From positions 69,252,201-69,316,200 of the forward strand of contig CM059562.1 in NCBI GenBank assembly GCA_030386875.1: a stretch of DNA of 64,000 bases, read 5' to 3'. Both the position numbers and the translations under genes were made by a program. The DNA comes from Morinoia aosen. Lineage: Eukaryota; Arthropoda; Malacostraca; Amphipoda; Talitridae. Positions 2,597 to 60,855 of the stretch are shown here, in pieces; the stretch's first letter is position 1; each line of letters begins with the position of its first letter. The notes beneath the pieces are model-generated. The model had not been told where the DNA came from. It did not search any database and saw nothing but the letters and a program-made list of their open reading frames with translations.

Positions 2597-2654
2597 AGTA
2601 GATTAGATGTTTATCTAAGCCTCCCTAACGACAACATAGACGTTCCAAAGGGAG
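2597..2654 (-). mobile_element. Tail-end fragment of the 357-bp retroposon family
   Basis: The fragment starts with the family's simple tail (AGTAGATTAGATG) and continues through the conserved block GCCTCCCTAAC to GTTCCAAAG. It stops abruptly and abuts the tail of the longer copy that begins at 2655. On the minus strand it is the 3' end of an element joined directly downstream of another element's tail. Confidence 0.75.
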
Positions 2655-2998
2655 GTTTAGATTAGATTATATGTTAGTTTAAACCTCCCTAACCGCTACA
2701 ACAAAGAGCGTATCAAAGAGAGGAAGGAGGAAGGCACAATTGAGTATGGAGTTGAAGCGAATTCGAAATCTCTGCTCAAGGTGCATAGAAACAGCAGTTG
2801 AGATAGAAGTTTATGAAACAAGAAAGAAGTTGAAGAAGAAATTAATATGGGCTGAAAAACAGGACAAAAGTGCACCGAAAACAGATGGTCTGTTACTAAA
2901 CAAAAAAGACTATTTCATTCCAAACTTTAGCTCAAGACCTTATATATTCCTTCTGGGAGCGTGAATTCCCTTAGATACACTAATTGTATCTTTCTGAA
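2655..2998 (-). mobile_element. Near full-length copy of the 357-bp retroposon family
   Basis: Begins TTTAGATTAGATTATATG and contains the family landmarks in order: CCTCCCTAACC, GAGAGGAAGGAGGAAGGCAC, GCATAGAAACAGC, GCTGAAAAACAGGACA, TTTAGCTCAAG and a diverged terminal hairpin (GATACACTAATTGTATC). It is the short variant, lacking the roughly 20-bp insertion near the GCATAGAAACAG block. No convincing target-site duplication was found. Any open frames inside it are not shared intact between copies, so it is treated as non-coding. Confidence 0.85.
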
Positions 2999-3135
2999 TT
3001 CGTTAAAGTAAATGAGCTTCAGTCTCGCAGTGACGCTACAGCACTGTTGGAGAGAAATGATTTACGACCTTACTTACAATTCCATTTTTTTCCAAAATAA
3101 TTTTTCTCTATTCTACTAACGTCAGGATTTTTTGT

Positions 3136-3155
3136 TTTATGAGCTAGCTCATAAA
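3136..3155. repeat. 20-bp perfect palindrome
   Basis: TTTATGAGCTAGCTCATAAA equals its own reverse complement, centred between 3145 and 3146. It could extrude a short hairpin. No flanking inverted repeat or target duplication was found. Confidence 0.85.
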
Positions 3156-4594
3156 CCAGGTAAAGGCTCCAGGCATTTTAGCTTATTCATCATACTGTGC
3201 AACGCATGCATTAAGAAGAACTAAAAACGTATACACGAGAAAAGCAGACTATGATCAAGTTAAATGCGAGAACGCTGCAAAGGTAGACTACAATATAACT
3301 AGAACCAAACAATCATAAGAAACTACATAAAATCAAACAGAAAAAATGCGGTAGAATTGCAATAAGGCGAACTGTAGACCTCAAACTAACCATAGTTCAC
3401 AGATATGGATAGTTCAACACATTCCATTCGACGTGAGATGCGTTAATTGAACACATGAAGGAGGCCAAAATAGGTCGAAAGTGGACGAGGTCATCAGACG
3501 CAGGCAAATCGATCAGCAGGTCGGCAACCAGAAAGGTGCGGCAGGTCAAAGCAGGCAGGTTGAGCAGGGCAGCCTGCAGCAGTCCCGCTGACAGCAGCCC
3601 GCAGAAGGCAGTAATTAAGCTCGGAGAGCTGTCAGTCGTCAGCTATTGAGCGGCACTGCACGACCGACAGCGACGAGCGGCAGCAGGCAAGCAATGCAGC
3701 GCACGGCCGTCAGCAAGGCAAGCTTACCACAAAGAAAACACGATTCAAAATTCGGTTTCTTACAGTATTTTATATACATACACAATATAGAACTTAATGC
3801 AATAGCTATTTTTCTGAACAACTCATTTGATTCAGTGAATTATAAAGGTGACAGGTTACCACCGCATGGCCAAGAGTAATTTATTCAGAAGAGAGAAGTA
3901 GCTTTACGATTGTACGCTACCAATTGCGCGTGAGGAAAGTTACCAAGTAGTACGTGTTGCACTCGTAATACTCAACTCGTTATTCTACTTGCAAAAACAT
4001 TGTCGTGCCTAACTAAGGTGACAGTAAAATTTGATTCCTAAAGAGCATCCACGATGCAAAAAAAGTAAGGGTCCACATTTCAAGTTTCTTGCACTAGCAC
4101 TGACAGGAAAGACAGAAAAACAGAATCAAAAGCACCTGTAATTCGATTCATTGACATGTTAGATACAATGGCAAGAAATGAAGATGCACAGAGCTTAGTG
4201 ATGCTCACTCTAAGAGCAGGCGGAGTGATGCGTTTAAGAGTGCGCGGTTCGTGTCGGAGAAATTAAAGAAGCAGAGGTGACAGAGATTAAAGAGTAGCAT
4301 TTAGCAAGTCTGCAACAAGCCAATGCCATAAGAGCTCTCACTTTGCTCTGATGGCATCCTATTTAACAGAGGCCACTCGCACCGCCTGAATGACCGGTCC
4401 CATACAATACCTTCCTAGCCAACTCAGGCAGGCAGGCGGGGCACTCGAAAAAAAGATCTTGAATCAAAACGCCCACGATCCTGAATTTTAATATGTATGA
4501 ATAGTATTAATTGAATACGAAATGAACAGGAAACCGCTAAGGACTGTCGCAAAAAATTCGAAGTAGAGGTGGCCAGAACACGGAAAAAATATCG

Positions 4595-4654
4595 ACTCGT
4601 TCTCCGCAAATTTGCGGGGCCAGTTGCGGGGTAAACTCGTTCCCCGCAAATTTG
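4595..4654. repeat. Two 20-bp direct repeats 40 bp apart, the first containing a palindrome
   Basis: ACTCGTTCTCCGCAAATTTG at 4595-4614 recurs as ACTCGTTCCCCGCAAATTTG at 4635-4654, with one difference. The 14-bp palindrome CCGCAAATTTGCGG at 4604-4617 overlaps the first copy. Such a unit could be a remnant of a tandem array or of a transposon end, but no further units were seen. Confidence 0.7.
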
Positions 4655-4692
4655 ATATGTATTTGGGATTTCTGTCCAATTTACGGTTCATT

Positions 4693-5034
4693 GAATAAGA
4701 CGTTAGTTAAAGTCTCCCTGACCTCAACAAAGGCGTTCCAAAGAAAGGAAACAGGAAGGCACCATTTAGTCTGGACTTAAGGGAACATGGAATTTGTGCA
4801 CAAGGCGCATAGAAACAGAAAGTAAAGAAATAAATTTATTAAACAAGATAAAAGTTAAAGTTGAAAATAGAAGGTGCTGAAAAACAGAACAGCAGTGAAC
4901 CGGAAAAAGATGGTCCTTAGAAAACACTATTTCAACATAAAAAATGTGTTCGTAACTCAATAGCTCGGGACCACACATTTCTCCCCTCGAATTGCTAATT
5001 CCCATCGATACAATAGTTGCATCCCTCTGAGGAG
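4693..5034 (-). mobile_element. Near full-length copy of the 357-bp retroposon family, short variant
   Basis: Recognised by TCTCCCTGACCTCAACAAAGG, GGCACCATTTAGT, GGCGCATAGAAACAG, GCTGAAAAACAGAACAGCAG, ATAGCTCGGGACC and the terminal stem GATACAATAGTTGCATC. On minus-strand RNA the single change in that stem becomes a G-U wobble. The tail has decayed to GAATAAGACGTTAG. No clear target duplication. Confidence 0.85.
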
Positions 5035-5783
5035 GTGCTCTAGACCAATTTCCCGCAGACATTTGTAAGAATATGCAGCGAATATGGTCACAGCCACAAT
5101 CATGCATCGTCCTTCCCAGCAAAAAGACTGTGTGAACACGACGAGAGCGCTCATGTGTGCGGCCAGATGAGGGCAATCCAGACGAGCATTTTATCTCCAA
5201 GAAATGAGGCGTTATAACACACCTATATGGAACTGCTCACCGTTTTCTGACCGTGTAACCGCCGAGTGCTTCTAGCGGTAGCAGACTTGTGCACAATTGA
5301 TAGGGTTTGTTCTGTCCGGTGGTAATTATTTTAGCCTTTCAGAAGGTAATTATTCTAGACTTTCTCACAAAAGTCAGTGAGTCAACCTTTCGGGTCTCAG
5401 TAACCCATAGATATATAGCACATGAAATTCGTTCCTTCCAGACGTTTTGTCTCTAGTCCATAATAGCACGGCGTTCAATTGTGCCATTATCATACGTCGG
5501 ATCAAAAACAATTAAAATTATTAGTACAAGAAAAAACTCATCATTTTTGAGCTTTGACTCAAACTCTATTTTTGTTTAAATCATTGCTGAAGTGATGAGC
5601 ATGGATCTTTGTGCCAGAGGAGCGCACGTCTCCAAAATGCGTTGTAGGACCATCCTCTACCGCGCACTCCCCTTCGGGGTAAGCTACACGAAATGCACGA
5701 AAGGATAATTAACAAGAGCTTCCAGTTAACTTGATCGGATGAGGAAATATATTACAAGGAAAACAACATTATATGAATATCTT

Positions 5784-5825
5784 CGTTAATAAAGCCTCCC
5801 TCAATTACTCGTTGAAAGATCCTCA
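5784..5825 (-). mobile_element. Possible short tail-end fragment of the 357-bp retroposon family
   Basis: GTTAATAAAGCCTCCCTCAA followed by a GTTGAAAGATCCT block resembles the first 40 bases next to the family's tail. The match is short and diverged, so this may be coincidence. If real it has the same orientation as all other copies. Confidence 0.3.
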
Positions 5826-7010
5826 ATGTAGCTTAGTACACTAACGCGGAAATTGCGTGATAACTAACTAAAACTCAAAAATAGGATGTTCAAGGAAGAA
5901 TCCAGCTCAGAATAAGTAAACTTCAAGTAAACAATATTAGACAAATGAAAAGTCGTACAACGGAAATAAGTATTCCACAAAGGCGCATGTTAGGCCTATT
6001 CGGTTCAACTACTTAGATGAACGTCAGGTTATGCGTTAGCGAGCCAAGTGGAAACGAACTTTGCACGCAGGCCAGTCAACCTCTACTTCGGCTTACTGCG
6101 CCAAACCAAATGCACCAGGACTGCAAAAAGAATGATTACGAAAGCCCTGATTCAATATAAAAATTTGAAAACAAGAATAGAACAAAAACTGGCGTAAAAT
6201 AACACCAACACATTACAGCTGACGTTAGATTGTCCGTGAATCGACAGGTTAGATAGCTAACGAAAAGTACAGGTAATAGACATATTTTTTCAAGTAGCAC
6301 TAAACAACTGAACTAAAATAACAAGAAAAAAGGAGAACGAATACCGTAAATAAAACCTGAAACCTTTCGTTCACAAGGAGACGCAACATTAGGCTTTAGG
6401 CTCAACACACTCCAGATAAAAAGATGACCGCAAGTAACAAAGTGTGCGTACACGCTAAGAAGAAACGATGAGAGGTTGTCACGCTAAAAGAAAACTAAAC
6501 CAGAAACCAACATGAGGTGAGATAGAAAGAGAAGCACTGAGATTTGAGAGTGAGCTACCCTCCTAAGTCCCTCACTCGCCGCAACATCGCACGCCGCTAT
6601 CCCGACAATCAGTAAACGGGCCGACTTTACCTTCCTGCCTTATCTCGCGTATCAAGAACCGCTCACCCGCACTCTTTGCATGCGATATCAACGGCATCTG
6701 AGAACTCCCGCTCGCCTCACGCACTCAGCTCTCGTGCTATACAAGACTTCCTCGCAGCTCAACACTTCTATATTAACTCAATGAAAAAATTGCACCATAA
6801 ATGAGATATTTGATTGCCCCGTCTACCCAGAGGTGTGTAATACTACAGCATGTGTAGCTTTCAACAGCGACGATAAAGTGAATGAAATGAGTATCCACAC
6901 AGAATAGAACCTTTCGTTTTATTCTTGTTTCCTCATAATTCCACGACAATTCTTTTTAAAACAATTTCTAGTTAAAGATATCACAAACTAAATGCGAACG
7001 TACAAAGTAC

Positions 7011-7469
7011 TCACCTCTGAAAAAACAATTGACTGAAAATCACAAGCATACGCTCATTGACGCGGTCAAATAAAAAGTCAAGGCTGAACACCATCCCATC
7101 GCACCGAAAGAAGCAGTCACCACCTACTCCAAGTTTACAATCATCAAATACGAGTGGGCAATATGCTGCAAGATGCTTCAAGATGTGGAAGTTTAGTCGA
7201 CGACGTTTGGCATGGCGCAAGTAGCTTCCTTGAGAGGGTGCCGAAGCGGTGCGCAGCGTAACTAGCGGCATCGGAACAAGCACTAAAACGAAACTAGCCA
7301 AACATTGGCCATGAAGGGAGCAGGCACAGAGCGCTAATTTGATCTGGCAGCTAGCGGGCCACCGGCAGCTCGGCAACTTTGTGCTTACTACTCTCGGTCG
7401 AGGGACGTGAGGGCGAGCGGTACAGCACTCCCAACGCCGCGCCAGTAGTGCATAAGATGCACACAACAT
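7011..7469 (-). CDS. Unrecognised 152-codon open frame ending in a splice-donor-like site
   Basis: This is the longest open frame in the window. Its higher-coordinate half (about 7240-7470) lies in a GC/CpG-rich patch, which favours chance open frames. The frame runs to a TGA that overlaps a consensus-like donor on the minus strand: CAGAG then GTGAGTACT, with the putative exon ending at 7015. This is what is seen when an exon reads a few bases into its intron. No domain, signal peptide or repeat is recognisable. The C-terminal part (for example FDRVNERMLVIFSQLFF) has a plausible residue mixture but no family assignment. It may equally be spurious. Confidence 0.15.
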   Translation of the reverse strand: MLCASYALLARRWECCTARPHVPRPRVVSTKLPSCRWPASCQIKLALCACSLHGQCLASFVLVLVPMPLVTLRTASAPSQGSYLRHAKRRRLNFHILKHLAAYCPLVFDDCKLGVGGDCFFRCDGMVFSLDFLFDRVNERMLVIFSQLFFQR

Positions 7470-8027
7470 AAACTTACCATACTCTAATCAACGCGAAACC
7501 ATCATAAGTTTACAAAAATCTCATGATAAGAAGAAATCTTTACACAGAACATGTTGAAAACTTGTAAATTAAGACGAAATGACATTTTTCATTTGATGGT
7601 TAACGTGACGTTTTTTATAAGCGTGTTCTTAGAGGCAATTTTCGGCAAAAAGCGAATGTTACACCATGAATGAAAATGTGTAACAAATGAACGCAACTTT
7701 AATCGCAACAGCACCATTTTTGTAATTGTTTACCCATTACGATCCAAGGCGAACTCCCATGCCACATCGAAAAATAGATTCCTTCTTTTCCTACAAGGAA
7801 GAGCTACGTCACACGACGAAGAATGTTGCGCCAGAAACATGCATTCAGTGATTTATTAAGGTGCTCGTGGTAGCCGGACATGTCTAACCCTGGACATTCG
7901 CATTAAATAATTTAACTAAAGTAAAGAGAAAAATCATTTAGAAATCAATTGGAAGAGTTCAAACTCCTTCCTAACCCGCAAGATTTGCTTCTAATACAAA
8001 ATCATTTTCGTTCATTCAAGTCGATAA

Positions 8028-8095
8028 GTCTAAGCCTAATAATTCCAGGCTAAGCCTCCCTAATCACAACAAAGATATTCTTAGGAGAGGATGGA
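8028..8095 (-). mobile_element. Tail-end fragment of the 357-bp retroposon family
   Basis: GGCTAAGCCTCCCTAATCAC through AGGAGAGGATGG matches the first 60-70 bases at the family's tail side, then stops where the next, longer copy begins. This is the same fragment-plus-full arrangement as at 2597-2998. Confidence 0.7.
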
Positions 8096-8099
8096 TTAA

Positions 8100-8455
8100 A
8101 ATTTCAAGTTAGTTTGAGCTCCTGTAATCATAACAATGAAGTTCCCAAGAGCGGAAGGAGATAAGTAGCTCACAGCATAAATTAACGGAACGGGAAGTCT
8201 TGAGCACAATGCGAGCCCCCGTGCATATAAAATAAAAACACGATCGAAGAAATTTATGAAACACAATGAAAGTTGAAGAAGGAAGTACCACGAGCAGAAC
8301 AAAAAAAGACGGCAGTAAACCGATAGAATATGGCCCGTAGTAAAAAATATATTTCGGCAAAAAGAAAGCCTGCCTAATCTTCAGCTTGGGACTTCAGATA
8401 TTCTCCCAGGGAGTGCTAATTCCCGTAGATACAATAGTCGTATCTCCCTGAGGGA
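8100..8455 (-). mobile_element. Near full-length, diverged copy of the 357-bp retroposon family, long variant
   Basis: Landmarks are present but eroded: GCTCCTGTAATCATAAC, AAGTTCCCAAGAG, GAAATTTATGAAACA, GGCAGTAAACCGATAG, TCAGCTTGGGACTTCA, GGGAGTGCTAATTCCCGTAG, and a terminal stem GATACAATAGTCGTATC that stays paired in minus-strand RNA through one G-U. It has extra sequence in the position of the long-variant insertion. No target duplication was identified. Confidence 0.8.
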
Positions 8456-9357
8456 ATATCAACGCATGAATTTACTGGTTTACATCAGAGACAAAGTATA
8501 TTAATTGGCAGAAACAGCTCCATTTAAGTGCCATTTAGTAATCCACATAATTTTTAGCACCAAAATGTTGACTTGGTAGCTGCTCAAGATGTAATTCAGA
8601 CCATAATGAACTTAGAGACAAGACGCGTCCAAACCCTGGACCAGATAACTAACACACGGGAAGTCCTAGGACCTCAAACTCATGAAAACTCCTCCAAAAA
8701 ATACTGGAGTGATATAAAAATCGAAGGCAATGAACGAAATGGATGAAAATGTCTGGAGTGGATGCCCTAAAAAGTCGTTGAAGTGACGAGCACTGACGAA
8801 AAAGAAAGCGAGACCAGCAATTTGAGGGCAGCCCCTCCCCGCGCACCACGCAGACGCAGAGCCTCATCATCGACAGCGGCCGTTCCTGGACCGTCACAAA
8901 TAGGCAAATTATTCAAATGACGGCCATGCTTAAGAAATTAGGCCTCCTCAGAGACGAGGACGGATGGCCACTTAGGAGGGCCGCCGCGCTCTGGCCTGGC
9001 CGGCAAGCAGCGAGCGAGCGCGCGCGCAGGACACACGTAACGTCGACCCAAGTCAAAAACCAGTTACGAAATTTAACCCCAACGCCCCAAGCTAAATGCT
9101 ACCAAATAGTACCATTGCATTCATTTTCTTACAGGAAATCTTACTTGACCGACAATTAAAAGCAGTTGTAATGACTTGGTTGTTCAGAATATTAAATAAG
9201 TGATTTTTGCAGTTCATAATTCCATCTGTAGAACTATCCATTCAAAAACAATTATAATAAGTATTTATAACTGATATAAAGTATTTTACATACACAACGG
9301 TTGCTCAAGTGAGTGCTAGTCTTTTCTCAAGTATTAAACATTCTTGAAAATTTATTC

Positions 9358-9379
9358 ATATATATATATATATATATAT
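9358..9379. repeat. (AT)11 microsatellite
   Basis: An uninterrupted alternating AT tract of about 22 bases. Confidence 0.9.
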
Positions 9380-10584
9380 CCACCCGAACGTCCCCGCATG
9401 TAAAGAACCGTTCTCCTTACCCACAAGTGTTCTACAAAACAAAGATTGATTTTCAAAGATTGATTTTCTAAGATTGAGCACGTGACCATGAAACGTAGCG
9501 TTGCACTGTTACAGTTTCATCAAGTGAACGCGGAACAGACGTTTCCGAACCACAAAATATCAACCCACAGTAGTTAGTATTTTGAACTTATTATCTCACA
9601 GTGAACATATTCACAGTAGAATAAGTTCACTAGAAACATGTTAAAAGCTACAGCAATGAACTAATTAAGGTAAAAATCAAAAAGCGGGAAGGAAAGAATA
9701 GAAATTGATTCGGTTATGATTTACAGAACGCAACGTATAACAAAAAATTGCAATTACTTCAAATTATTATAAACAGTTATCCACAAATAACTATCTTTCC
9801 AACAAAAATGCAGGCTATAATTAGTCAATTTTAACTTGCAGCTAATCCCACATAGTTTACCCGAGCTAGTGTCAAACACAAGAAATTTCAAATTCAGAGC
9901 AAATACGCAACAATGGTAAATAACTGAAATAATAGATCTAAAAAGAGCATTAGCACTTTACTGGGTAATCAACATGAGACAAAATTAGCGTTGAAGACTG
10001 GGAACAAAAATTTTCACTCAAATTGATTTTGCGTCATCCAGGACTCGATCGATAAGCAAATAAATTGCAGATAAATAAACGATTTACCCCAAGCAACATT
10101 TTAACGAAAGCAACGAAAGAATTGCACAAATCGAATGTTGGGCAACGTGTCTTTCATTGGACGCGTTGCTGTCCTCGTCAGAACTCAAGAAACAAACACA
10201 AGATTAGGACACCAGCAGCAGAAAGTCTTGAGACCGCAAACCACATGGAGCGTATCGACCACAGAGCAATAACGCGGACCGTCCGCAACCGCAGTTGCTC
10301 CGAAAGTGCTCACATCGAAATGAGATACGAGAACTTTTGTTTTGCAAAAGTCACCAAGAAAAGTTATGACGTAATGCCACCTCATTTCAAGCCGGATCAA
10401 CTATTAAATTCGCTTAACTGCAGGCAGACAGTCAAATTGAAAGAGCATAGAAGGCAAGTGCACATCAATAGCCGAGTGCGTCTAGGCTTCAACTCAAGTT
10501 TCGTCGAGCGTTAACGATCACGAGGGTAGAAGACATTCGACTTAATTTCTCATGACATTTATTATAGGCTACGCTGAACTATTA

Positions 10585-10735
10585 AGATCGCTTGATAGAG
10601 TACTCATAGTCACGAACGGAGATAGCATTACACTTTATTAGACGTGGCATGTATAATAGACTGATTCAACCTATCAACTTCGTTTGATTGAACGCTCATA
10701 GTCACGGAAGTCGCTGTAGCATTCCACTTTGATAG
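10585..10735. repeat. Imperfect local duplication, two units about 90 bp apart
   Basis: TCGCTTGATAGAGTACTCAT, ATAGTCACG and TAGCATTACACTTTATTAG at 10587-10640 recur as TCGTTTGATTGAACGCTCAT, ATAGTCACG and TAGCATTCCACTTTGATAG at about 10680-10735. The intervening sequence is unrelated. This is probably an old tandem duplication; a related inverted stretch may exist near 10806-10840. Confidence 0.6.
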
Positions 10736-12096
10736 CGAGCTAAAGACACTCTGAATTAATGCGCGGCACCAATCTGGAAAACCAACCCACACAATTGTAC
10801 AGTCAAATGGAATCGAATGATGGCTATGAGTGCGTGAAACACCTTAATTGTACAATGCGCATTCTAGTTAGTTATTGGTAATACATTTTTACAAAATTTC
10901 CAACTCCGTCTTCTATTTGTCGCTTTGACCTTCGAAATATATAAGAAGGATATAAGTTTCAAAAACTTTACAATCATTTAATCATAAAACATTTTTTTAC
11001 CGTTCCTGACCCAATAAATAAATGCCATCATCTTGACATAAAAACATTACTTCAAAAACCACTCGTTAGAAGTGAAGCAATCAATCGCACTTTGGGGTTA
11101 CGTGTGCAACGCAGTCGCACAGCAGCGTCAAGATCAAACACTAATTGTATGAGCGCAGCAAGAAAATATATTAAAACTGCATAGACCTCAAGTCTTGTAC
11201 CTTCAATGCTACCGCTTCCTAAGTAATTAGAGGCCGAGCGGTATCAGCAATACAAGACAATCGTTGCAATTCAAAAGTACTGTTACAGGATTAAATATGC
11301 CTAAAATCGAACAGAAATAACTCCAGTTCTGATGATGATCCGAAATTTGTGATGAGCATGCGTCATGTTAATGATTCCAGTCGAGTGTTTTCAACAACGA
11401 TGGTACGAGGTTTGGCAAGTTATCAAATAATCAAGAAAGCTCGATACCATAAAGGAAGAATCTTTCATTCACTCACAAGTTCGGTTTAAGTCGAGAGATC
11501 AAAGTCAAGGTACTTTGAAGACATGTGATTAAACACTCAAGGTAAAGGCTACCTAATCATTTTTGAACTCATATCATGGATCAAACCGCTATTTCAGAAG
11601 TACACTATTTCTTGGAGTACGGAGGCAGCTGTTGAATATTACAAAGCTGGCACGTCTGCACCACGAAACCAGTGCCAAAAGCTCCAGTAAACCCTTAATC
11701 TTATTTTCATTCCGATTGCCAGCCGACAAGTAAGCCATATTTCAATCACAGAAGAATCCATTTAAACGTTTCACAGTATATGGTTTGAGGAACAAGAACC
11801 CTACAGTATCAAGTTCTTCCATGGGGCTCCTTAATATATCTATCAATAGCTAATGAATTTCGATCCCATGGTTTGCAACATTGCAGAATGAAACATGAGC
11901 AGTGTTTGAAGTAAAGAAATTAAGAACGAAAACCACGCAAACACTGGAATCTGAAAGGCCTCAAATGTTACAAAATAAAAGGCAAACGAACATTAAAGAC
12001 GTTTGGTGTAAGAAGTAACGAGTTGCATGGATTTGAGCGAATGAAATGGTGAACATGCATGGGATCTGGGAATGGGATAGAAATGTCCCTATAGAC

Positions 12097-12210: not shown

Positions 12211-12218
12211 CTCTAGAC

Positions 12219-20435: not shown

Positions 20436-20450
20436 ATGATGGTTGCGATA

Positions 20451-20464
20451 ACGGTAATATGAAT
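20451..20464. repeat. Left target-site duplication of the retroposon at 20465-20821
   Basis: ACGGTAATATGAAT here is repeated exactly at 20822-20835, immediately beyond the other end of the element. A 14-bp direct repeat is typical of target-primed reverse transcription. Confidence 0.9.
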
Positions 20465-43253: not shown

Positions 43254-43257
43254 TTTA

Positions 43258-43518: not shown

Positions 43519-43522
43519 TAAA

Positions 43523-51036: not shown

Positions 51037-51564
51037 CCTAACTGAACAAGACCGAGCCGCGGCCGGCATCAGGAAAACTGCACGCAATCTCCGAACTGAA
51101 CAAGACCGAGCCGCGGCCGGCATCAGGGAAACTGCACACAATCTCCGAACTGAACAAGACCGAGCCGCGGCCGGCATCAGGGAAACTGCACACAATCTCC
51201 GAACTGAACAAGACCGAGCCGCGGCCGGCATCAGGGAAACTGCACACAATCTCCGAACTGAACAAGACCGAGCCGCGGCCGGCGTCAGGAAAACTGCACA
51301 CAAGCTCCGAACTGAACAAGACAGAGCCGCAGCATCAGGGAAACTGCACACAATCTCCGAACTGAACAAGACCGAGCCGCGGCCGGCATCAGGAAAACTG
51401 CACACAAGCTCCGAACTGAACAAGACAGAACCGCAGCATCAGGGAAACTGCACACAATCTCCGAACTGAACAAGACCGAACCGCGGCCGGCGTCAGGAAA
51501 ACTGCACACAAGCTCCGAACTGAACAAGACCGAACCGCAGCATCAGGGAAACTGCACACAATCT
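51037..51564. repeat. GC-rich minisatellite with 54-bp and 50-bp units and a 104-bp higher-order repeat
   Basis: Units begin CCGAACTGAACAAGACCGAG (the first begins CCTAACTGAA) at 51037, 51091, 51145, 51199, 51253, 51307, 51357, 51411, 51461 and 51515. Seven are 54 bp. Those at 51307, 51411 and 51515 are 50 bp because CGGCCGGC-type bases are reduced (CCGCAGCATC). From 51253 onward, 54- and 50-bp units alternate, giving three 104-bp dimers. Each dimer's first unit ends CACACAAGCT instead of CACACAATCT. The 54-bp period is a multiple of three, so open frames of up to 136 codons on the minus strand arise trivially. These are not treated as genes. Confidence 0.95.
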
Positions 51565-51816
51565 TCGAAATGAACTTAGGGCTCTGACAAACAAGCCAGG
51601 AATGTCTGTGTGCTGGAAGTGTGGGAACTACGGTGACGGCACCATGATTGAGAAAACAGGTAACTTCAGGTGCAATTGATTAATTATATGAGCAGAAGTG
51701 AGACATGAAACAGGGAAAATATAGAAGTTAGACATTCATTAAAATGACTAAACGGTGCTCCTCACGTAACTTCAAAAGAGGCGTGAGGAGACATGACTTC
51801 CCAAAATAATAACACT
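51565..51816. other. Short spacer
   Basis: Unique sequence between the minisatellite and the target duplication of the next retroposon copy. It holds nothing recognisable. Confidence 0.5.
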
Positions 51817-51826
51817 GAAGACGAAT
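51817..51826. repeat. Left target-site duplication of the retroposon at 51827-52210
   Basis: GAAGACGAAT is repeated exactly at 52211-52220, immediately after the element's hairpin end. Confidence 0.8.
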
Positions 51827-52210
51827 TATATTATTCTTATTATTAGTATTAGTATCATTATTATACAAGAAAGTTTTAGCATCCCTTTACCACGACAAAG
51901 ATGTTCAAAGAGAGGAACGATGAAGGCATCATTTAGTATGGAGTTAATGGAACGCGGAATCTAAGCACAAGGCGCATAGAAACAGTGAGCTAAAAAATAG
52001 TTCATGAAACAAGAAAAAGTTGAGGAAGAAAGTAGTAGGTGCTGGAAAACAAGACAGCAAAGAACCGAAAAAATGGTCCGTAATAAAACAAAAACCTATT
52101 CTATTTCAACAAAAAAAGAGCCTACCTAACCTTCAGCTCGGGCCCTCACATAATCCCCCTGGGAGCGCTGATTCCCATAGATACAATAGTAGTATCACCC
52201 TGAGGGGACC
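51827..52210 (-). mobile_element. Full-length copy of the 357-bp retroposon family with an expanded simple-sequence tail
   Basis: A 10-bp target duplication flanks the copy. Between the left duplication and the first body block (TTTTAGCATCCCTTTACC) is about 40 bp of TTATTATTAGTATTAGTATC-type simple sequence, the tail in expanded, drifted form. The body matches the reference copy closely: GGCATCATTTAGTATGGAG, GGCGCATAGAAACAGTGAG, GTAGTAGGTGCTGGAAAAC, CTAACCTTCAGCTCGGGCC and GGGAGCGCTGATTCCCATAG. Short variant. It establishes that simple sequence, not poly(A), lies at the 3' end. Confidence 0.9.
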
Positions 52211-52220
52211 GAAGACGAAT
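52211..52220. repeat. Right target-site duplication of the retroposon at 51827-52210
   Basis: Exact copy of GAAGACGAAT at 51817-51826. Confidence 0.8.
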
Positions 52221-55200
52221 GAAGGTAACAAATATTCAAAATAAATCGTTTCCAAAGCCAAAATCAATCATAAAATATCCAGTGCACTAACAAATTCGTA
52301 CTCTAAACATTGAGAGCAGAGAAAACATAATTAAAGCATCGCAAGTGTACGTCAAAAACAGTAGAAATCATAAAACTGAAGGTAACATCGAGACAACTGG
52401 CCAAAAAGTTAAAGAGCTCAGTCAGCGATGTTAATCCACACTTGAAGAACTCGCACAATCATTAAAACCGAACTTTCTGAATAACCTTCAAGACTTGTGA
52501 GATAACCCATACAGAGAGCGAGTAACCAAAGTATAGATCGAAATGCAATCATAAAATATTGTTTAAGTTGCTTGTTACATACTATAAACTGATGAATATA
52601 GACAGAAAGAAATTGATCTCAACTTCAAAAACATCACCACAGTGATAGTCTCGGGTTCATTTCGACTAAAACAGTTAGGTGAACAATGCACAAGTTCTTT
52701 TCAAGTGTTGCCAGAATAATGATATACAATTTACAATCATTCCCACATGAAATTTATTAACACTTCAACTATACTGTAGCTTAAAACTGATAAAATTGAA
52801 CAATACATTAAGGAATAAAACACACGTCAAAAAATTAATATAAGAGTACACACTACTAAAAAACTGATGTAGCGCAGCAACGCGCTGGCAATTGTCTATA
52901 GAAAGAGCATACACATAAAAATAATTCCTGTTATCAAGTCGGAAGAGCAATATCAATTTACAACATAGCTCAACAAACGCGAATACTTCAGAAATAATTA
53001 GCAGTTGTCACAGACGCATGTGCATTATATCCTGAGCGATAATAGTTCAAATACGTCATCAAGCTGTCAGTCATAAAGACAGACCGCCAGTTACGGTTGC
53101 AAGGCAGTATTTGAACGAACTTATTGCGGAAGGAGGGTTGGCTACATTGTGGGTAAAATCGCGGCACCAAGCACTAACAATCATACAATGAGCCGGTCTA
53201 AGCAGGTTACATTCGAACTGAGTAAGCACCAAGGTATTAAGGGTAGACTCAGTACAACGACATCCTGAAGTTAATCGGAAGGTAAAATCTATGAGTTGAA
53301 GGAAATAGATGGAGCTAGAACCATAACTTGAAGGTAAGGGAACTTAGGGAACGAAATATGACACGCGATTAAAAAAGGTTAAAGGACAATATAAATATCA
53401 CAATTTAAAGCTAAAATGCAAACGTATTAAATTAAACACGTTAACTAAAAAGGGAGAAGGGTAGAAGGGTAGAAGAAGAGAAAAGTTATTGGAATAAATT
53501 CAGAATAATTAGAAATCCATTACCAATAATTTTTTTGACAATTACATACAACCGATAAAGACAGCACTCACTTTAAAAGACTGAAAAGGCCTCTAATAAC
53601 AACACTCGAAATCATAAGATATGATTTTAAAGGAAATTAACGCAGTTCAGAGAGTGAAAGCTCAAGAAAACGTGACGAAGAAAATCTCAGAAAAAGCAAG
53701 GAGTTCAAAACAGAAGCGTCAGCAAGAAGAAACATGAAGTAAAAAACAAAAACTTGAAGAAAGACCATCAGTATAAGAAATGGGTTATAAATAAAAAAGT
53801 AAGCACAGGAAAAGTATAAGTGAAATGAATACAGAATCAGAAAAGTGCTTCACACCTCTGGCAAATTATATTGAAAAAATAACACAAAAAATAAATTGAC
53901 GAAAGAGAAACTAGAACATTAACCCCAAAAATAGAACCGAATAAAGTGAAGCAACAAGGACCCGAAAATACTTCTCCGACCACACGGGAATCATTAAAAG
54001 AGAATAAAACTACCTAGAAGCAGGGTGTGCAAGAAAGGACAAAGCAGGCAAGTTTGCTTAGTTCACAAAATGAGGGAAGAGCCAAAAGAAGCGGGGCAGT
54101 TCCGTAAATGCGCGCAGCACGAGCGCGAGGAACACGCTCTGCACCGCACAATGCGCGCACAACGCAGGAGCGCGGCAACTCTTACTAAACGAAAGTCGAA
54201 CACAAAACGAGTCCGCGTGCGAATTCAACAGAATTAAAGGAGAAACTTCCAAATGCTACGGAAATCAGTCCTACTCACTGACTCGCGAAATGCATACTGT
54301 AAACAAAGAAAAGGTGAACGCTGAAAGAGCACTCGACGTCCAATTTCTACTAGATGTGCAGTGTCCGGAACAATCAACTGGTAGCAAGCTACATGAGAAT
54401 ACTACCTCAGAACCAGAGGAAAGACAATTTAACACTTTGCAAATATTTACAACAAATAATTCTTAAACTTCGACAACCGCATGCCTAAAAGATCCACATA
54501 ACATATGATGAAAAGCCGATGGGATTGCGGTGACCGACTAGCGCAACCCTGATAAATTTTCACATTAACTGGCGTGGGCTAAACTCAAGTTTAACAGTGT
54601 CAATTTTAGTATTCAGTTTTGAAAGTGACAAACATTAAAAGAATCGGGCCATCATTTGGTTTTGATTGAATATGAATGAAAATTGACTTAGGGACCACCA
54701 GTTGATCAACAACATTTTGTTAACTCCCCACCTGACGAAAAGTGCGCCAGGCAGAAGTTCATGTATTCAAGGAGCGGCAAAACAACCGGAATAAAGCGCG
54801 AAAATTCTTTAACCCTGGTAATTTATTTGAAAAAGAAACCGCTGATTTTTTGTTGACAGCAGGATGTGACAGGAAGCAATAGCTCGGTGTTGACAACTAT
54901 TGTAACTTAAAGAGAAAATAGGACTAATCAACGCAGAAAATTCGAAAATATAACAATTGAATACCGAAATGGACAAATATGAAGTCTCTATCGATCAAAT
55001 TCAATAACAATCGGAAGAAACGTAAAGCATGAAAGTTTCTCGTACGGAAAAAAACAAAATAAAAACGTAGAAATTTTTATGCTTTCTCTGATTCTCTAAA
55101 AGCAATTCAAAGGGCGCACAAAGATTATGGAAAAGAGTGAGGAATCTGAGATCAGCAGAATTGAAGGCCCGCTTTCTGTTAATATTTCACTCCCTCCACA

Positions 55201-55275
55201 CTTGAAAGCGTGCTGCGCAATTTAGGCCATAAACAAGCAACATTTACGAGTACACGCGAGCAAGGTTAAACTCAC
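52221..55275. other. Strongly A-rich (plus strand) non-coding spacer
   Basis: From about 53400 to 54050 the plus strand is very rich in A and poor in T, with long runs of purine-dominated sequence. A CpG-rich pocket at 54090-54200 gives opposed open frames. No gene recognised. Confidence 0.5.
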
Positions 55276-55345
55276 CTAAAGCTACGCAGATCTGCAACTG
55301 AAGGAGTTCATTGCTCATCCAACTACACAACGGGTTCACGCTACT
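55276..55345 (-). CDS. Candidate 70-bp internal exon of an unidentified minus-strand gene
   Basis: On the minus strand, an acceptor-like CTAACGACGCAG (after a T-rich stretch) precedes 70 bases open in one frame, SSVNPLCSWMSNELLQLQIC and three more residues. A consensus-like donor follows (GCTTTAG then GTGAGT). The segment has higher GC than its flanks. No family recognised, and the pyrimidine tract is interrupted, so confidence is low. Confidence 0.2.
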
Positions 55346-56072
55346 CTGCGTCGTTAGAATGCGAAATTTTATGCGAAATTTAATAACAAAATCATACAAA
55401 ATTAACAAAATCAGTAACCACTCCTGACACAGATCACTCACTCCTTGGATTGCACTTGAGTTCTTAGCTACAGAATCTAACTTTGGTAACGGCGTGATTG
55501 CTCAAACTATATTTAGTCGCTCCTTTTTCTATTAGACAACAAAAATTTATCTGTTAAAAGACGCAAAAAATGAAGATGCATTCACTATTACTCAACTGGT
55601 TAGACCGTATGGCACCAAGGACACAGTAGTAATGCGTAGGACGGGAAAAGTTACTGAATAATTTATGAATAAGAAAAACACTGAAATGAACCCTATGAAA
55701 AATCAATAAGAATGTTAACCACGCCAAAAATAAAACGGCTGCATTCTCGAAAGGAGACGCGGATGGATTACACAATGTACGGTTTTGTACTGGACAACGT
55801 TCCCTAACTATAACAATAGATTTTGAACTTGAATGGGATTCAACTTGTATTTAACACGCAGAGAACTCGGCACAGTTAACATTCGCATAATACGCTTGAC
55901 TATATGAAGTGCAAGATGCAAAAAACAGAACCTTGCCACAGCAGCATGTCCACGAAATCACGCAAGTCAGAGGAGAGATCACGGGACGCACGGTAGGCCG
56001 GTACATTCCTGTGGAGGCCTCCTGCTGAGCGAAGTAGGCTCGCCTTTTGTGTTGAGGGTGATGCGCACCACA
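55346..56072. other. AT-rich spacer
   Basis: No gene or repeat recognised; composition becomes C-rich on approaching the next array. Confidence 0.5.
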
Positions 56073-56342
56073 CACGCTGCACCCTGCCTACTCTGGCACC
56101 TCACCTCCCCTGACACATCACATACTGTACCTTAAAACCCCAGGCACATCACATACTGTACCTCACTTCCCTTCCCGAGGTACTTCACGTGCTGTACCTC
56201 AAAACCCCAGGCACTTAGCACGCTGCACCGCAAGTGCTCTGGCACATCACATACTGTACCTCACTTCACCAGGCCCTTGTCATACTGTACCCTACGTACC
56301 CTTGCACCACACATGCTGCACCTTACTGCACATATCCCAAAC
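56073..56342. repeat. Degenerate minisatellite, about 31-bp unit
   Basis: The anchor CATACTGTACC or CACGCTGCACC recurs at 56073, 56121, 56152, 56187, 56219, 56250, 56281 and 56312. Most spacings are 31-32 bp. Typical unit parts are GGCACATCACATACTGTACC and TCAAAACCCCA. Further degraded anchors continue to about 56460 (for example near 56396 and 56418). Confidence 0.88.
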
Positions 56343-56460
56343 GCAGCACTTCATATACGTACTAACACTCCACGTTCTATTTACCTACGATCCACACATG
56401 CTGCACCCTACACACCTCATACGCTGTAGCCGTCACACCCACGCTCCTCCACACATGCCG

Positions 56461-57110
56461 CATTTCGCATTTTGATAAACAAATAAGTTGATTCTTACTT
56501 AGTTGATAGTTGATTTTTACTAATAATTCTTCAAGAGCAGTTGCCGTGCGCGCCAAAAACTCGTTGGGGTATGATAAGAATGTAAATGATGTGCTACACT
56601 AGACATTAAATAAGCTAATTTGCAACATATTCACCCTCTGTGTGTCGTGAACAATGAAATGCTAGCCACGAAAACATGATTGCGTAGAACCAATTGCTGG
56701 TCTGAGACAACGTGACATTTCCACTCGGATATTGAGCCAGCTACGAGACTATGGTGACAAGACCCATAACGTTTGTTTTCGACACGAAAGTTCAAAAACG
56801 CAGGAACCAGACTGGATCGATAAGCGATTAGGGCCCGTTTATAATTACTGGATACATTTCAGTTCTGCGTGCCAGTCCTAATGATTTTGTAACGAAATCT
56901 TACTGGATCTACGCTGTGCTTTCCAAATTTACCCTCTAGAAATTTCCTCACCTGAACCCAGTGTAGCTCAGTCGTTTGCAAGAAAAACAAAGATATGCTA
57001 CTGCAAGATCAAAGTTCATCGTACCAATTTACAGGAAAATTCTATAGTCAAGAATTATGTCCCCAGCTGCATATACAGAAATATTCATGCTCATCTTCGT
57101 CCCAACACGA
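56461..57110. other. AT-rich spacer
   Basis: Nothing recognised between the minisatellite and the next retroposon. Confidence 0.5.
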
Positions 57111-57125
57111 AAGGAAAATATAAGA
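57111..57125. repeat. Left target-site duplication of the retroposon at 57126-57481
   Basis: AAGGAAAATATAAGA is repeated exactly at 57482-57496. Confidence 0.93.
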
Positions 57126-57481
57126 TTAGATTAATCGTTAGTTTTAGCCTCCCTACCCGCAGCAACAAATGCGATCCAAAGAGAGGAAGGAAGAAGGCAC
57201 CATTCAGTATGGAGTTAAAGGAACGCGGAATCTATGCAGAAAAGGCATAGAAACAGTAAGATGAGAAAGAAGTTCATGAAACAAGATCAAAGTTGAGGAA
57301 GAAAGTAGTAGGTGCTGAAAAACAGGACAGCAGTGAACCGAAAAAAATGGTCCGTTACAAAACAAAAACCTATTCTATTTTAACAAAATGAAAGCCTACC
57401 TAACCTTTAGCTCGGGCCCTCACATTGTCCCCCTGGGAGCGCTAATTCCCATAGATACAATAGTGGTATCCCCCTGATGGG
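57126..57481 (-). mobile_element. Full-length copy of the 357-bp retroposon family, 15-bp target duplication
   Basis: The body is 356 bp, one base different in length from the reference at 20465-20821, which confirms the family's true ends. It shows the same landmarks with very few changes: GCCTCCCTACCCGCAGCAAC, GAGAGGAAGGAAGAAGGCAC, CATTCAGTATGGAGTTAAAG, GGCATAGAAACAGTAAG, CTAACCTTTAGCTCGGGCCC and GGGAGCGCTAATTCCCATAG. The tail is TTAGATTAATC. This is one of the two least diverged copies and a short variant. Confidence 0.95.
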
Positions 57482-57496
57482 AAGGAAAATATAAGA
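57482..57496. repeat. Right target-site duplication of the retroposon at 57126-57481
   Basis: Exact copy of the 15 bases at 57111-57125. Confidence 0.93.
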
Positions 57497-58984
57497 CTTT
57501 ACCGTGAAGAGAAACATGGCTGAGCGCATTATTCCTTTTCTTAGTTACTGCTCCAGATGCATGCAATCTTATATTTAAATTTATAAATTTAAACCCCACT
57601 AATCATTGTATAAATTTGTTAAATATTCGTAAACGCGACACACAACACTTGTATACAGTTGTCTTAGCCAAAACGCACAAGCCATGACTTTCAACAAATC
57701 ACGTTGTAACTAAAAATTTATAAACAAATTTATCATTACTAACTTTGTGCATCACATAAAAGGGCATATAAAAGTATCCTTTCCAACAATGCCAAACAAA
57801 TAGCTGCACGCCACCGATTCATCACTTCGCCACCCTAACTAACAATGATAGACTGGCCTCGCACACGTAATACATCATTACATGTAGTCGTAATTCATCA
57901 ATACATCAGAGAAACAAGCAAAAACTGAGCAACAATGACGTACAGACCAACCGTTATTCCTCACACCACGTGGTCAAAGTTCCTCCATACTTCATAGGAA
58001 AGGAACAGCCATGAATAGCTGGCCAGTTTCGCTAGGAAAGCAAGGAAGCTAAGCGAGCGAGTCTCAGCTACGTGGTCGTCGTCTGTGGTGACACACAAGC
58101 AAGTCGTGAGAAGGCGTACCCAGCTAGTGGCTCATAAATAGCATGAGAATGATAGCCGGCACGAGCATTAGGACGCCAGTGTCACACGACCTCTCCAAAC
58201 CTGTCCATTTGATCATACGGTGACACCTCATAACGGCTACCGAAACACATCGTCGCCACCACACCACATTGATGCTCGGGCCGCTCAGTGCTGTCATAAA
58301 ATCTCCCTGTGCTGACTACACGCACGCACACACATAAGCATGTGGCTATTGACGGTTGCTAAAACAACTCATAACTTCTCAGTGAGCTGCACTTGCGGTG
58401 CACTTTTGGGTGCGTCTTCCCTAGAGTTATAGCCCTAAAAATGAATTGGTTCTCCTTCATTGAACTAAAGACGAGCGAGATGCCATCGGCTTTCCGTCTC
58501 ATGCCTATGAGCGCTAGACTCGATACTTTAAAAACTTAAACGCGTACTGAAGAATTGCAATTCTCCAAATTTAGAGCATTGAATTAATACTTTATTCATT
58601 TTCTGCGACGACGGGTAAAGAGAGCCAGAAGCGAAAAAGATCAATCCCCGAAGCGATTAAATTTTGAAGCGTAACCCAACCATTCCTACAGTCAGTAATC
58701 AGACGAAAGCAGAAACACCACCTTCATACATAGTAATTTTAGGCCTCACAGTTACTTTTGGCTCATCAGAGCCTCCTACTCAGATCTAACAACCTAAACC
58801 TCGAGGAGCCACGATCAACTACCAACTTTCTCACATGACGATGATTGAACTGAAGCGCTCATGCACTTCAAATGAGAAAACTACTCAGCTACTGCTGGCA
58901 TGCCTAATACATTCTTTCTGGAGACGATGGTGTCGACCGGTTGATTTGTGTGCGCGTTTTTCCTTGCGGTCAATCTTAGATTTG
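57497..58984. other. Non-coding spacer
   Basis: Mixed AT-rich sequence, slightly GC-richer at 58050-58330. No gene, tRNA or repeat recognised. Confidence 0.5.
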
Positions 58985-59342
58985 ACAAGATTATAATATA
59001 GTTTCAGCCTCCCTAACCACAACAAAGGTGTTCCCAAGCGAATAGGGTGGAGGGCACCGTTTAGTATGAAATTGAAGGAACGGTGATTCTATGCACAAGG
59101 CGTCCACCCACACTCGGTGCGCAGAAACAGCAAGATTGAAAGAAACTTATGAAATAAAAAAAGTTGAAGAAGAAAGTAGTTGATGTTAAGGAAGGACAAC
59201 AGTGAATCGAAAAGACACTTCTTATCAAAACGAAAATCTATTTTACAACAACGAAGGTAGGCCTACCTAACTAAGAGCTCGGGACCTCACTTTGTCTCCT
59301 TGAGAGCGTTAATTCCCAAGATACAATAATAACCCTGAAAGA
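58985..59342 (-). mobile_element. Near full-length copy of the 357-bp retroposon family, long variant
   Basis: CAGCCTCCCTAACCACAAC, AAAGGTGTTCCCAAGCG, GGCACCGTTTAGTATG, TTCTATGCACAAGGCGTCC, the long-variant CACCCACACTCGGTGCGCAG, AAACAGCAAGATTGAAAG, AAGAGCTCGGGACCTCAC and GAGAGCGTTAATTCCCAAG are recognisable. The terminal stem has decayed (GATACAATAATAACCC). AGATTT at both sides is too short to count as a target duplication. Confidence 0.85.
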
Positions 59343-60457
59343 TTTCTCGCAATAAACTCATTAAAAACTACGTTCAATAAATCAAAACTATCAATACCAA
59401 TACCATATAGTCTCCACAAACATTCCTGTTCATTTGCACAGAGTAGGTCAAAAACGACATTTCAAATAAAATTGAAAAATTACAAACGAATTATATTAAA
59501 AAGTCGAAAACATTCCTTCATGAAATATTCTTCGCCTCGAGTTTAAGTTCACTTTCTCCAAATTCAATTCCAAGGCCGAGTAATAGTGCAAAAAATAAAT
59601 AGCTTGACAGATTTCATGAACGTGATATGCGACAGAACGTTCTATCAAAAGACATTGAGGGAAGAACAGCAATCTAATTTAGATCCTTATATTTGAGGAA
59701 AAGGCAGGGCAACGTGGGAAGATAATTTCCGCACACAGATTTAGTGAAGAGATCTGCAATATCGGGAGAGGTTAATGACCATAAAAAGCTTGCTAAGCAC
59801 TGCTGCAGAGGCGGCAAGCGCGGGCAGGAGCGCTCGCACGACGTGCACTGTGCGCGGCGGAGTGTTTGCTCGGCAGTCCCCGTCTTTGTTCAGCGATGTT
59901 TGCCGGGCCTGCCTGCGTGTCCTCTCCAAGTGTCTCGAGTGAGACGGACGATCTCAATGAGCGGCACCCGCCCACACACATTCATTGCCCATGCTGTCGT
60001 ACTGTGAACAGCATTTCGACTCGCAATGCTTTGGGACGCCAGATTTCCGGCTAATTAAGTACTCTCGATTAGTGCCATATCATCTTTATTCATCTCATCA
60101 CACTTATCAATATAGCAGCTGTCATTTCTACCTCAACATTTAGAGAACATTAGACAAACTGCAAAATGAATTCGCGCATGCCTTTAACGTAAAACGAAAA
60201 AATTACCAAATCAGTAAATTATTCTGCCATATTAAAATGCCTTTGAACGACTGATGAAGTTCTAGTTACAACTGACAACAAAAGTTATTGATCATCAGCA
60301 TTCCCTGACTGGAAGTAGAAGTTGCCAGTAAAAAAAAGCACAAACTAGCAATGAGGCCCGAAGAGGACCATCATGAAAACATCTATATTTAGGTACCTAA
60401 CAACAGACTTAAGAAAGGAATTGACAACAAACTTCAGAATTTTGAAGTGCTCAGGAG
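59343..60457. other. Spacer with a CpG-rich patch at 59800-59990
   Basis: The patch contains GGCGGCAAGCGCGGGCAGGA and other CpG-rich sequence and produces overlapping open frames on both strands (62-87 codons). No domain or splice structure. Confidence 0.5.
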
Positions 60458-60533
60458 TTAGCATTAGTTTATAACTCCCTAGTTACATAAAATGCGATCC
60501 GAGGACAACAAAGAGAAGGGACCATTTAGTATG
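60458..60533 (-). mobile_element. Tail-end fragment of the 357-bp retroposon family
   Basis: GTTAGCATTAGTTTATAACT, CCCTAGTTACATAAAATGCG and GGGACCATTTAGTATGACG match the tail-side 75-90 bases, then switch to the tail of the next copy (TAAGATTAGAGTAAATG). Confidence 0.75.
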
Positions 60534-60534
60534 A

Positions 60535-60855
60535 CGTAAGATTAGAGTAAATGTTAGTTCATGCCTCCCTAAACGCAACAAAAGCGTTCCAAAGAGAAGA
60601 AGAAGGAAAGCACCATTGAACATAGAGTTGAGGGAACGCGGAATCTATGCACAAGGTGCATAGGAACATTAAGTTGAGAAAAAAGTTCATGAAACCAGAT
60701 AAAAGTTAAAGAAGGAAGTAATAGGTGCTGAAAAACAGGACAGCAGTGAACCGAAAAAAAGATGCTCAGTAACAAAACGAAAAACCTATTCTATTATATA
60801 TATATTTCCTTTCAACAAAAGGAAAGCATAATAGCTGCATCCACCTGAAGGGAGT
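60535..60855 (-). mobile_element. Copy of the 357-bp retroposon family with an internal deletion and an AT microsatellite
   Basis: Landmarks are clear up to ACAAAACGAAAAACCTATTC. An (AT)n stretch (60794-60805) then replaces the usual TATTTCAACA junction. About 60 bp, from the CTACCTAACC block to the ATTCCCATAG block, is missing before AATAGCTGCATCCACCTGAA at the hairpin end. Short variant. Confidence 0.85.

Follow-up and report, generated by a model that had tools for sequence, protein, structure and literature searches.

A short TAATC-tailed retroposon family of Morinoia aosen lies in gene sense in sampled DNA

Results

The genome of Morinoia aosen contains a family of short retroposons whose copies, in the DNA that we sampled, sit in sense orientation within or beside genes. 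The family was studied in a 64,000-nt stretch (assembly GCA_030386875.1, contig CM059562.1, positions 69,252,201-69,316,200 of the forward strand; hereafter the window) and in further stretches of the same genome. The evidence supports a retroposon that is non-autonomous, has defined ends and lacks a poly(A) tail, and the orientation of its copies tracks that of the genes around them.

A family of full-length and truncated copies

An earlier note, made from the letters of the window alone, had described 16 loci of a 357-bp element. We used the two copies named there as seeds of an nhmmer profile, iterated four times over both strands of the window; this returned 20 matches (E 3e-105 to 7e-7), which collapse into the same 16 loci when adjoining pieces are merged. 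The family is real. In the 1.99-Gb host genome, at least 39 further near-full-length copies (among the best 40 of 2136 candidates) align with the 357-bp copy over almost its whole length at 94-99% identity, which upholds the length given in the note; the consensus of young copies is 362 nt including the tail.

All loci lie on the minus strand of the window. Three carry recognisable target duplications: the young 357-bp copy at 20465..20821, 1.2% from the young consensus, with 14 bp; a copy of about 356 bp at 57124..57481, with 15 bp; and a copy with a TAA-type tail at 51827..52207 (E 1e-89), whose flanking duplication is identical at 12 of 13 bp. A near full-length copy lies at 4687..5034 (E 3.5e-82), and others occupy 25675..26014 (E 4e-78) and 58978..59341 (E 5e-78). 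Erosion affects the 5' end of the copy at 19011..19327 (E 4e-58) and both ends of that at 32821..33169 (E 3e-53), and four copies are 5'-truncated (27846..27962, E 4e-14; 35907..36116, E 1e-37; 37770..37999, E 2e-31; 44574..44712, E 8e-24). Four loci bear an extra 3'-end piece: 2597..2999, with a full body at 2660-2999 and the piece at 2599-2655 behind the tail (E 2e-78, 6e-10); 8036..8455, piece 8050-8095 (E 2.5e-66, 7e-7); 19990..20442, piece 19993-20083 (E 2e-69, 5e-15); and 60449..60846, piece 60458-60538 (E 1e-70, 2e-9). Nested insertion was rejected as the source of these doubled 3' ends, as none of them showed a split older copy on the other side.

The note's density of one locus per 4 kb describes the window region but not the genome in general. 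Outside the window, 17 matches were found in a further 28 stretches totalling 248 kb, of which 20 are spaced around it. The eight stretches from elsewhere in the genome contain a single match in 48 kb, giving a genome-wide estimate of about 41,000 matches with a 95% range of 1,000-231,000. With the window excluded, strand-skewed stretches carry about seven times as many copies per kb (13 in 82 kb) as the others (4 in 166 kb), at a skew threshold of 0.08 that we chose.

Fixed ends and target duplications

Read in element sense, which is the minus strand of the window, each full copy runs from a C4TCAG4 hairpin at the 5' end to a TAATC-type tail at the 3' end, with termini CCCCTCAGGGG and (TAATC)n. 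The 3' end also has a CCTCTC...GGGAGG stem-loop. The TAATC tail had been reported before; we add TAA-type variants at sampled loci L028 and L050 and at window position 51866, and an AT tail at L017. The tail is a simple repeat present on one side only, and its length varies among copies. Both perfect duplications that the earlier note had listed were recovered, 14 bp at 20451/20822 and 15 bp at 57111/57482, whereas the same test, applied to 12 window loci, left 9 of them without a convincing duplication. Because random pairs can score as high as 22 (300 same-spaced pairs; 95th percentile 9), any single duplication score is weak, and it is the whole set at the predicted ends that counts. Across the window and the fetched loci, 26 of 66 matches have duplications of 10-20 bp, which fixes the ends; the duplications of L008 and L038 reflect one insertion copied by segmental duplication, leaving 25 independent. 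In 14 of the 26 the duplication directly abuts the hairpin, which speaks against the possibility, raised in the note, that the copies are fragments of an element extending past the hairpin. Together, fixed ends, duplications of variable length and a one-sided simple tail indicate a non-autonomous retroposon of the target-primed reverse transcription (TPRT) type, in agreement with the note's description of a non-poly(A) retroposon.

Two LINE-like ends occur in the sampled DNA. One belongs to a LINE in L011 with RVT_1 and partial RNase H matches, the other to a sequence in L026 that we take to be a LINE on our own reading. Both resemble the element in having simple-repeat, non-poly(A) tails but differ in the repeat, (CAA)n and (ACT)n rather than TAATC-type, and in this small sample neither shares a 3' end with the element. 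The element may also derive from a LINE by internal deletion, in which case a LINE of this genome would have both of its ends.

Element class

The label SINE-like, used in the note, fits in part: the copies are short, non-coding and dispersed, with variable target duplications, but a strict SINE has a Pol III promoter. No tRNA, 5S (A/IE/C) or 7SL boxes were found in the young consensus using box patterns (best B-box match with 3 mismatches, A box with 2), in keeping with the note's lack of tRNA-type boxes, and six internal T runs of four or more argue against Pol III; a Pol III SINE head was thus rejected. ARAGORN reported nothing in the window. Rfam gave no family there at gathering level, and for one young copy searched at E up to 5 it gave four sub-threshold matches, with no ribozyme of hammerhead, HDV or other Rfam type among them, although a ribozyme of an unknown class is possible. 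A MITE or other DNA transposon is at odds with ends that are not inverted repeats and with duplications that are not of fixed length, and a Helitron, which makes no target duplication and ends 3' in CTRR, with the presence of duplications. An unusually stable whole-element fold was also rejected (z -0.13, one copy). An 18-base pattern had no match in viral contigs, a result uninformative on animals. Among the titles and abstracts returned by searches of open-licence literature, we found no report of a TAATC-tailed or sense-biased SINE family.

Orientation relative to genes

All 20 window matches lie on one strand, a pattern that the earlier note does not mention. Outside the window (L020), two minus-strand exons of a Pbx/extradenticle-type (PBC) gene lie at C7:69325888-69326109 and C7:69318254-69318327, the latter with an AG acceptor and a GTAAGT donor; joined, they match Pfam at E 7e-16. 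Since the window begins 2 kb downstream of a PBC exon, the whole of it (1..64000, minus strand) is probably an intron of this gene. Motif searches of the window and of 30 kb sampled below it turned up no later PBC exon, so "intron" remains an inference from the L020 exons; hmmscan, run in one frame over 30 kb of minus strand in the window, found no families.

In hmmscan, 7 of 30 ORF and exon-candidate queries reached the Pfam cut-off. Gene strands rest on such matches for the PBC gene, for two Sina_TRAF exons (E 1e-16 and 1e-12) with one element copy between them, for Glyco_transf_7N (E 3e-15), and for 7tm_2 (E 1e-21) with a zinc finger (E 8e-12). Coding potential alone set the strand in L016, L008 and L028. 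In L016, three copies lie between exons, of which there are five, with a translation resembling a coiled-coil protein. The strand of L028 was chosen on what we take to be an F-box-like motif in its plus-strand ORF; that ORF, the only one of the locus scanned, has no Pfam match, and the minus-strand ORF scores slightly above it. For the window and for L017-L019, the strand was extended from L020 by skew continuity. The copy in L026, between two ORFs, and the second copy in L014, beyond the last exon seen, are near genes and not proven intronic.

All 36 matches with an assigned gene strand, in seven gene neighbourhoods, are in gene sense (the other 30 of the 66 had none assigned); without the weakly assigned L028, the count is 34 of 34 in six. 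These strands were assigned by hand before the count, with the copy strands already known to us, and 25 of the 36 matches come from one region, that of the PBC gene. Neighbouring copies agree as well: 34 of 35 adjacent pairs share an orientation (29 of 30 without five pairs of abutting pieces), and the single opposite pair is in L057. Other repeats common to stretches of like skew show no preference, with 22 in the same and 20 in the opposite orientation.

Origin of the orientation bias

We favour, with a probability of about 0.4, a joint reading in which a LINE-copied TPRT retroposon, transcribed by Pol II, owes its orientation mainly to priming on the template strand of transcribed genes. 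In such a scheme, a non-autonomous element of about 357 nt would be copied by target-primed reverse transcription with the enzymes of a putative LINE. Its transcription would most likely be by Pol II, partly as read-through of host introns, because no Pol III promoter is recognisable in the element and several Pol III terminators lie inside it. Where genes are transcribed in the germline, their nicked or opened template strands would be the preferred sites of priming, and the geometry of TPRT would then orient the element along the gene. A minor 1.6-2.9-fold bias may come from the richness in T of intron sense strands, and subsequent loss of antisense and intergenic copies would sharpen the pattern. 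The uniform strand in the window, the gene-sense and adjacent-pair counts, the sevenfold density, the lack of preference in other repeats, the small size of the site preference and the T excess beside most younger copies support biased insertion. Against it, younger copies are less strict (6 of 27 against skew, and L057), and random insertion followed by selection would give the same pattern. In human cells, transcription-coupled repair is reported to disfavour sense L1 insertions, the opposite effect (PMC5717806).

Selection after random insertion is only slightly less probable. Antisense intron copies, which present a purine-rich strand and could be exonised, would be harmful and sense copies would survive, and intergenic copies would be erased as TE-rich intergenic DNA turns over fast. 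Copy age bears on this. Of 27 independent younger copies, at 94-99% identity to the copy in the window, 21 are richer in T than in A on the element sense side (p 0.006) and six oppose the skew, two clearly (L055 and L056, about -0.09); L057 holds a genuine opposite-facing neighbour. The older copies (15-25% divergence, most in the PBC region) look stricter, at 27 of 27, although their measure is gene sense and that of the younger copies skew. The element's sense strand is intron-like (40% T), and AATAAA and ATTAAA are absent from both strands. Little-skewed stretches (L011, L024, L026, L036) hold long LINE-type ORFs and others that we take, on motifs, to be LTR-type, so this DNA is probably young. 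However, selection must leave none of 36 copies antisense in genes and lose nearly all intergenic ones; by our arithmetic, equal retention of both orientations predicts about 50 copies in the unskewed 166 kb, where 4 were observed. In addition, a crude scan, of donors only, found no GT in the best antisense donor-like match but two one-mismatch donors on the sense strand.

It is improbable that composition alone is responsible, with an endonuclease preferring T-rich sites, intron sense strands being T-rich and orientation merely tracking skew. Orientation does follow skew in 8 of the 10 sampled stretches with copies (the sign is wrong and weak in L010 and L026, although in L026 the gene strand nevertheless agrees), and outside its copies the window has an AT skew of +0.165 on the plus strand, that is, T over A on the gene sense strand. 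Undetected old copies may contribute to this value but, given the element's own sense-strand skew of about 0.34 by base counts, must occupy roughly half of what remains of the window to account for it. On their sense side, insertion sites are rich in T, which is the first duplicated base in 16 of 26. Yet a site matrix from these 26 insertions (three from the window) predicts an orientation bias in the window of only 1.6-2.9 : 1, so that all 16 loci would point one way with a probability of 0.009 at 2.9 : 1 and 0.001 at 1.84 : 1; the former ratio is probably an upper bound because the wide matrix absorbs local composition.

Least probable is that replication sets the orientation, through insertion on one fork strand in skew domains that are replicons: L1 is reported in a review to prefer the leading-strand orientation (PMC10030826), and skew and element orientation both reverse between C7:69.11 and 69.15 Mb, but gene strand changes there too (L016 gene plus, PBC gene minus), and gene neighbourhoods match element direction in 7 of 7 cases, or 6 of 6 without L028.

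Discussion

Several known systems resemble this family in part. The lepidopteran SINEs HaSE1-3 and PxSE1-5 are similar in length, non-coding nature, short duplications (5-18 bp in HaSE1), simple-repeat 3' tail and presumed LINE dependence, and the PxSE families are reported to favour introns (PMC3272025, PMC8010984). The element differs in following gene sense, which HaSE and PxSE are not known to do (the word "orientation" is absent from the main text of PMC8010984). Compared with tRNA-, 5S- and 7SL-derived SINEs, it has internal T runs and a C-rich 5' hairpin, with no Pol III boxes found. The SIDER elements of Leishmania are likewise short, degenerate retroposons lying mostly along transcription, about 4:1 with Pol II in directional gene clusters; they are described as exclusively sense within 3'UTRs, antisense-enriched in spacers between processing sites, and acting on gene expression from the 3'UTRs of polycistronic units (PMC2689281). 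SIDER, however, belongs to protist 3'UTRs, whereas the present element occupies introns or gene flanks of an animal genome, in sense throughout the assigned sample. Human L1 and Alu also insert by TPRT with orientations that depend on gene direction, partly set at insertion for L1 (PMC5717806, PMC10030826), and the antisense bias of L1 in human genes has been argued from selection or from insertion (PMC5717806); L1 is biased against gene sense and our element toward it.

The near-complete sense bias, with a sign opposite to that of L1, together with copies of many ages and clear ends, makes this family well suited to testing how transcription, repair and reverse transcription meet at the target strand. 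The element could also serve to read gene direction directly from the sequence of genomes in this lineage that lack annotation. A more far-reaching and, in our view, doubtful proposal is that it is a promoterless retroposon largely confined by transcription-coupled insertion to the template strand of active genes, entering gene bodies in sense, carried in every host pre-mRNA and so transcribed without a promoter of its own. If such a read-through life cycle is true, it would represent a different expression route for a short retroposon.

Copies and structure of the retroposon

A profile search of both strands, seeded with the two copies named in an earlier note, found 20 matches in the window, all on one strand, which merge to the 16 loci that the note had counted. 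The sense direction of the retroposon is the minus strand of the window. In that direction, the hairpin CCCCTCAGGGG stands at the 5′ end and another perfect hairpin, GATACAA..TTGTATC, comes next; the body is rich in T, and the 3′ part consists of the stem-loop CCTCTC...GGGAGG and repeated TAATC units as the tail. The window corresponds to C7:69252201–69316200 of the host, which is most likely an animal in view of its PBC, Sina and Glyco_transf_7 genes. We searched its 1.99-Gb genome in 29 contigs, and the copy counts from this search are lower bounds; the best 40 of 2136 candidates were scored, giving 39 copies besides the query, at 94–99% identity over nearly the whole length, with two short pieces adjoining one of these 39.

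Beyond this family, the window has only seven short alignments in common with other sampled DNA. It also contains tandem arrays: ten GC-rich 54-bp units with a 104-bp higher-order period (51036–51575), a 31-bp array (56065–56331) and a 25-bp array (49467–49607). In the sampled stretches, a LINE-type ORF with RVT_1 precedes a (CAA)n tail in L011 (7038–8486, minus strand), and another, recognized by reading alone, precedes an (ACT)n tail in L026 (38–820, plus strand).

Insertion marks and class

Duplications of 10–20 bp (score at least 10) flank 26 of the 66 matches in the window and the sampled stretches L002–L050; their variable length agrees with the earlier reading of target duplications as in LINE-mediated retrotransposition. 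Both L008 and L038 are counted among the 26; comparison of their flanks shows one insertion copied by segmental duplication, with the same site and flanks at 15.84 and 14.44 Mb of contig C8, ~1.4 Mb apart. Reading by eye, the hairpin lies directly against the duplication with no intervening base in 14 of the 26 copies, 2–5 extra bases separate them in six, and the remaining six have a short or decayed 5′ end. The opposite end is a simple repeat of variable length. The TAATC-like repeat previously noticed at the minus-strand 3′ end is indeed the tail of most copies with duplications; TAA-type tails occur in L028, L050 and the window (51866), and an AT-type tail in L017. Together, the variable duplications, the hairpin end and the variable simple tail are the anatomy of target-primed reverse transcription. 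A subfamily with CTTTCTT and then TAA-type or AT repeats instead of TAATC (L017 8694–9020, L028 5810–6136, window 51827–52207) perhaps uses another LINE.

At 4 of the 16 window loci, the tail of a full copy is immediately followed by a 5′-truncated second 3′-end piece of 46–91 bp (2599–2655, 8050–8095, 19993–20083 and 60458–60538), and two of these pieces start close to where the 3′ stem-loop has its base. No split older copy was seen on the other side at these four loci; template jumping between RNAs, which would give such doubled ends, is their likely cause.

In a consensus of 21 young copies, scanned with box patterns on both strands, every A-box candidate had at least two mismatches and every B-box candidate at least three, and there were no good 5S or 7SL motifs; the earlier note likewise saw no tRNA-type internal promoter boxes. 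The sense strand of the consensus has six runs of at least four T, and T runs of four or more stop Pol III. Within the window, ARAGORN found no tRNA and no Rfam family reached its gathering score. With no Pol III boxes found and six internal T runs, the retroposon, as judged from its sequence, falls outside the strict definition of a SINE; ‘SINE-like’, the label first given to it, is a fair one.

Orientation relative to base skew

Our sample comprised twenty 10-kb stretches along 1 Mb of contig C7 and eight 6-kb stretches elsewhere. Copies are present in 10 of these 28 stretches, and in all five that hold more than one, the copies face one way. In 8 of the 10, T exceeds A in the surrounding DNA on the copy’s sense strand; skew is weak in both exceptions, L010 and L026. 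Copy orientation and skew flip jointly between C7:69.11 and 69.15 Mb. Across the window (1–64000), AT skew outside copies is strong and even, at +0.165, and extends to C7:69.15 and 69.33 Mb. Skewed DNA holds 13 copies in 82 kb (nine stretches) versus 4 in 166 kb (19 stretches) of unskewed DNA, leaving out the window and using a skew cut of 0.08 chosen after the data were seen. Younger independent copies with flanks lie with the skew in 21 of 27 cases (mean +0.064, p 0.006), or 22 of 27 when flanks are limited to 400 bp per side; the 27 are all those fetched for that purpose, with L038 left out as the duplicate of L008. An opposite-facing neighbor occurs only in L057, a further stretch of the genome (1 of 35 adjacent pairs, five of which are abutting pieces).

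Orientation relative to genes

Gene strands in the sampled stretches were assigned from a coding-potential scan, plus Pfam matches where given. Two Pbx/extradenticle-type (PBC) exons lie on the minus strand of L020, which adjoins the window (PBC match E 6.9e-16 when joined); the nearer one, with an AG acceptor and a GTAAGT donor, is 2 kb from the window, which thus most likely lies inside the next intron of this minus-strand gene. A motif scan found no later PBC-gene exons in the window or in L017–L019, sampled below it. Elsewhere, one copy lies between two plus-strand Sina_TRAF exons (L014) and three of four copies lie between five plus-strand exon-like ORFs (L016); L030 has a plus-strand Glyco_transf_7N exon, and in L026 the minus strand carries both a 7tm_2 receptor and a zinc-finger ORF. 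For L008 and L028 the strand comes from coding potential alone; it is doubtful for L028, where a minus-strand ORF overlaps and has a slightly higher score.

All 36 matches in stretches with a gene strand are in gene sense (34 of 34 without L028), 25 of them in the PBC gene region and seven with a strand from coding potential alone; by neighborhood, agreement is 7 of 7 (6 of 6 without L028). No gene strand was assigned for the remaining 30 of the 66 matches. Agreement with skew among young copies (21 of 27) is lower than the gene-strand count suggests.

In contrast to these gene-sense matches, human L1 in genes is biased against the sense orientation, and transcription-coupled repair yields much of that bias at insertion (PMC5717806). 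Leishmania SIDERs, in a polycistronic genome, are mostly sense (~4:1) and in 3′-UTRs exclusively so, with antisense SIDERs enriched in spacers (PMC2689281); Lepidopteran PxSE SINEs favor introns (PMC8010984). Our search of open-licence literature found no report of a TAATC-tailed or sense-locked SINE family.

Cause of the orientation bias

Other repeats common to stretches of like skew align in the same orientation 22 times versus 20 in the opposite one, counting alignments rather than independent families, so this retroposon family seems to be the one that carries the bias. When the sequence preference derived from 26 insertion sites is scored on both window strands, it predicts 1.6–2.9 : 1 versus the 16 : 0 observed, an outcome with a chance of 0.009 at the upper figure of 2.9 : 1. 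Taken with the opposite neighbor in L057, the incomplete agreement of young copies with skew points either to insertion that is biased but not absolute, with later loss sharpening the orientation, or to selection doing most of the orienting work. We lean slightly toward biased insertion, since selection acting only within introns would hardly leave so few copies in unskewed DNA, but fast turnover between genes would also account for this shortage.
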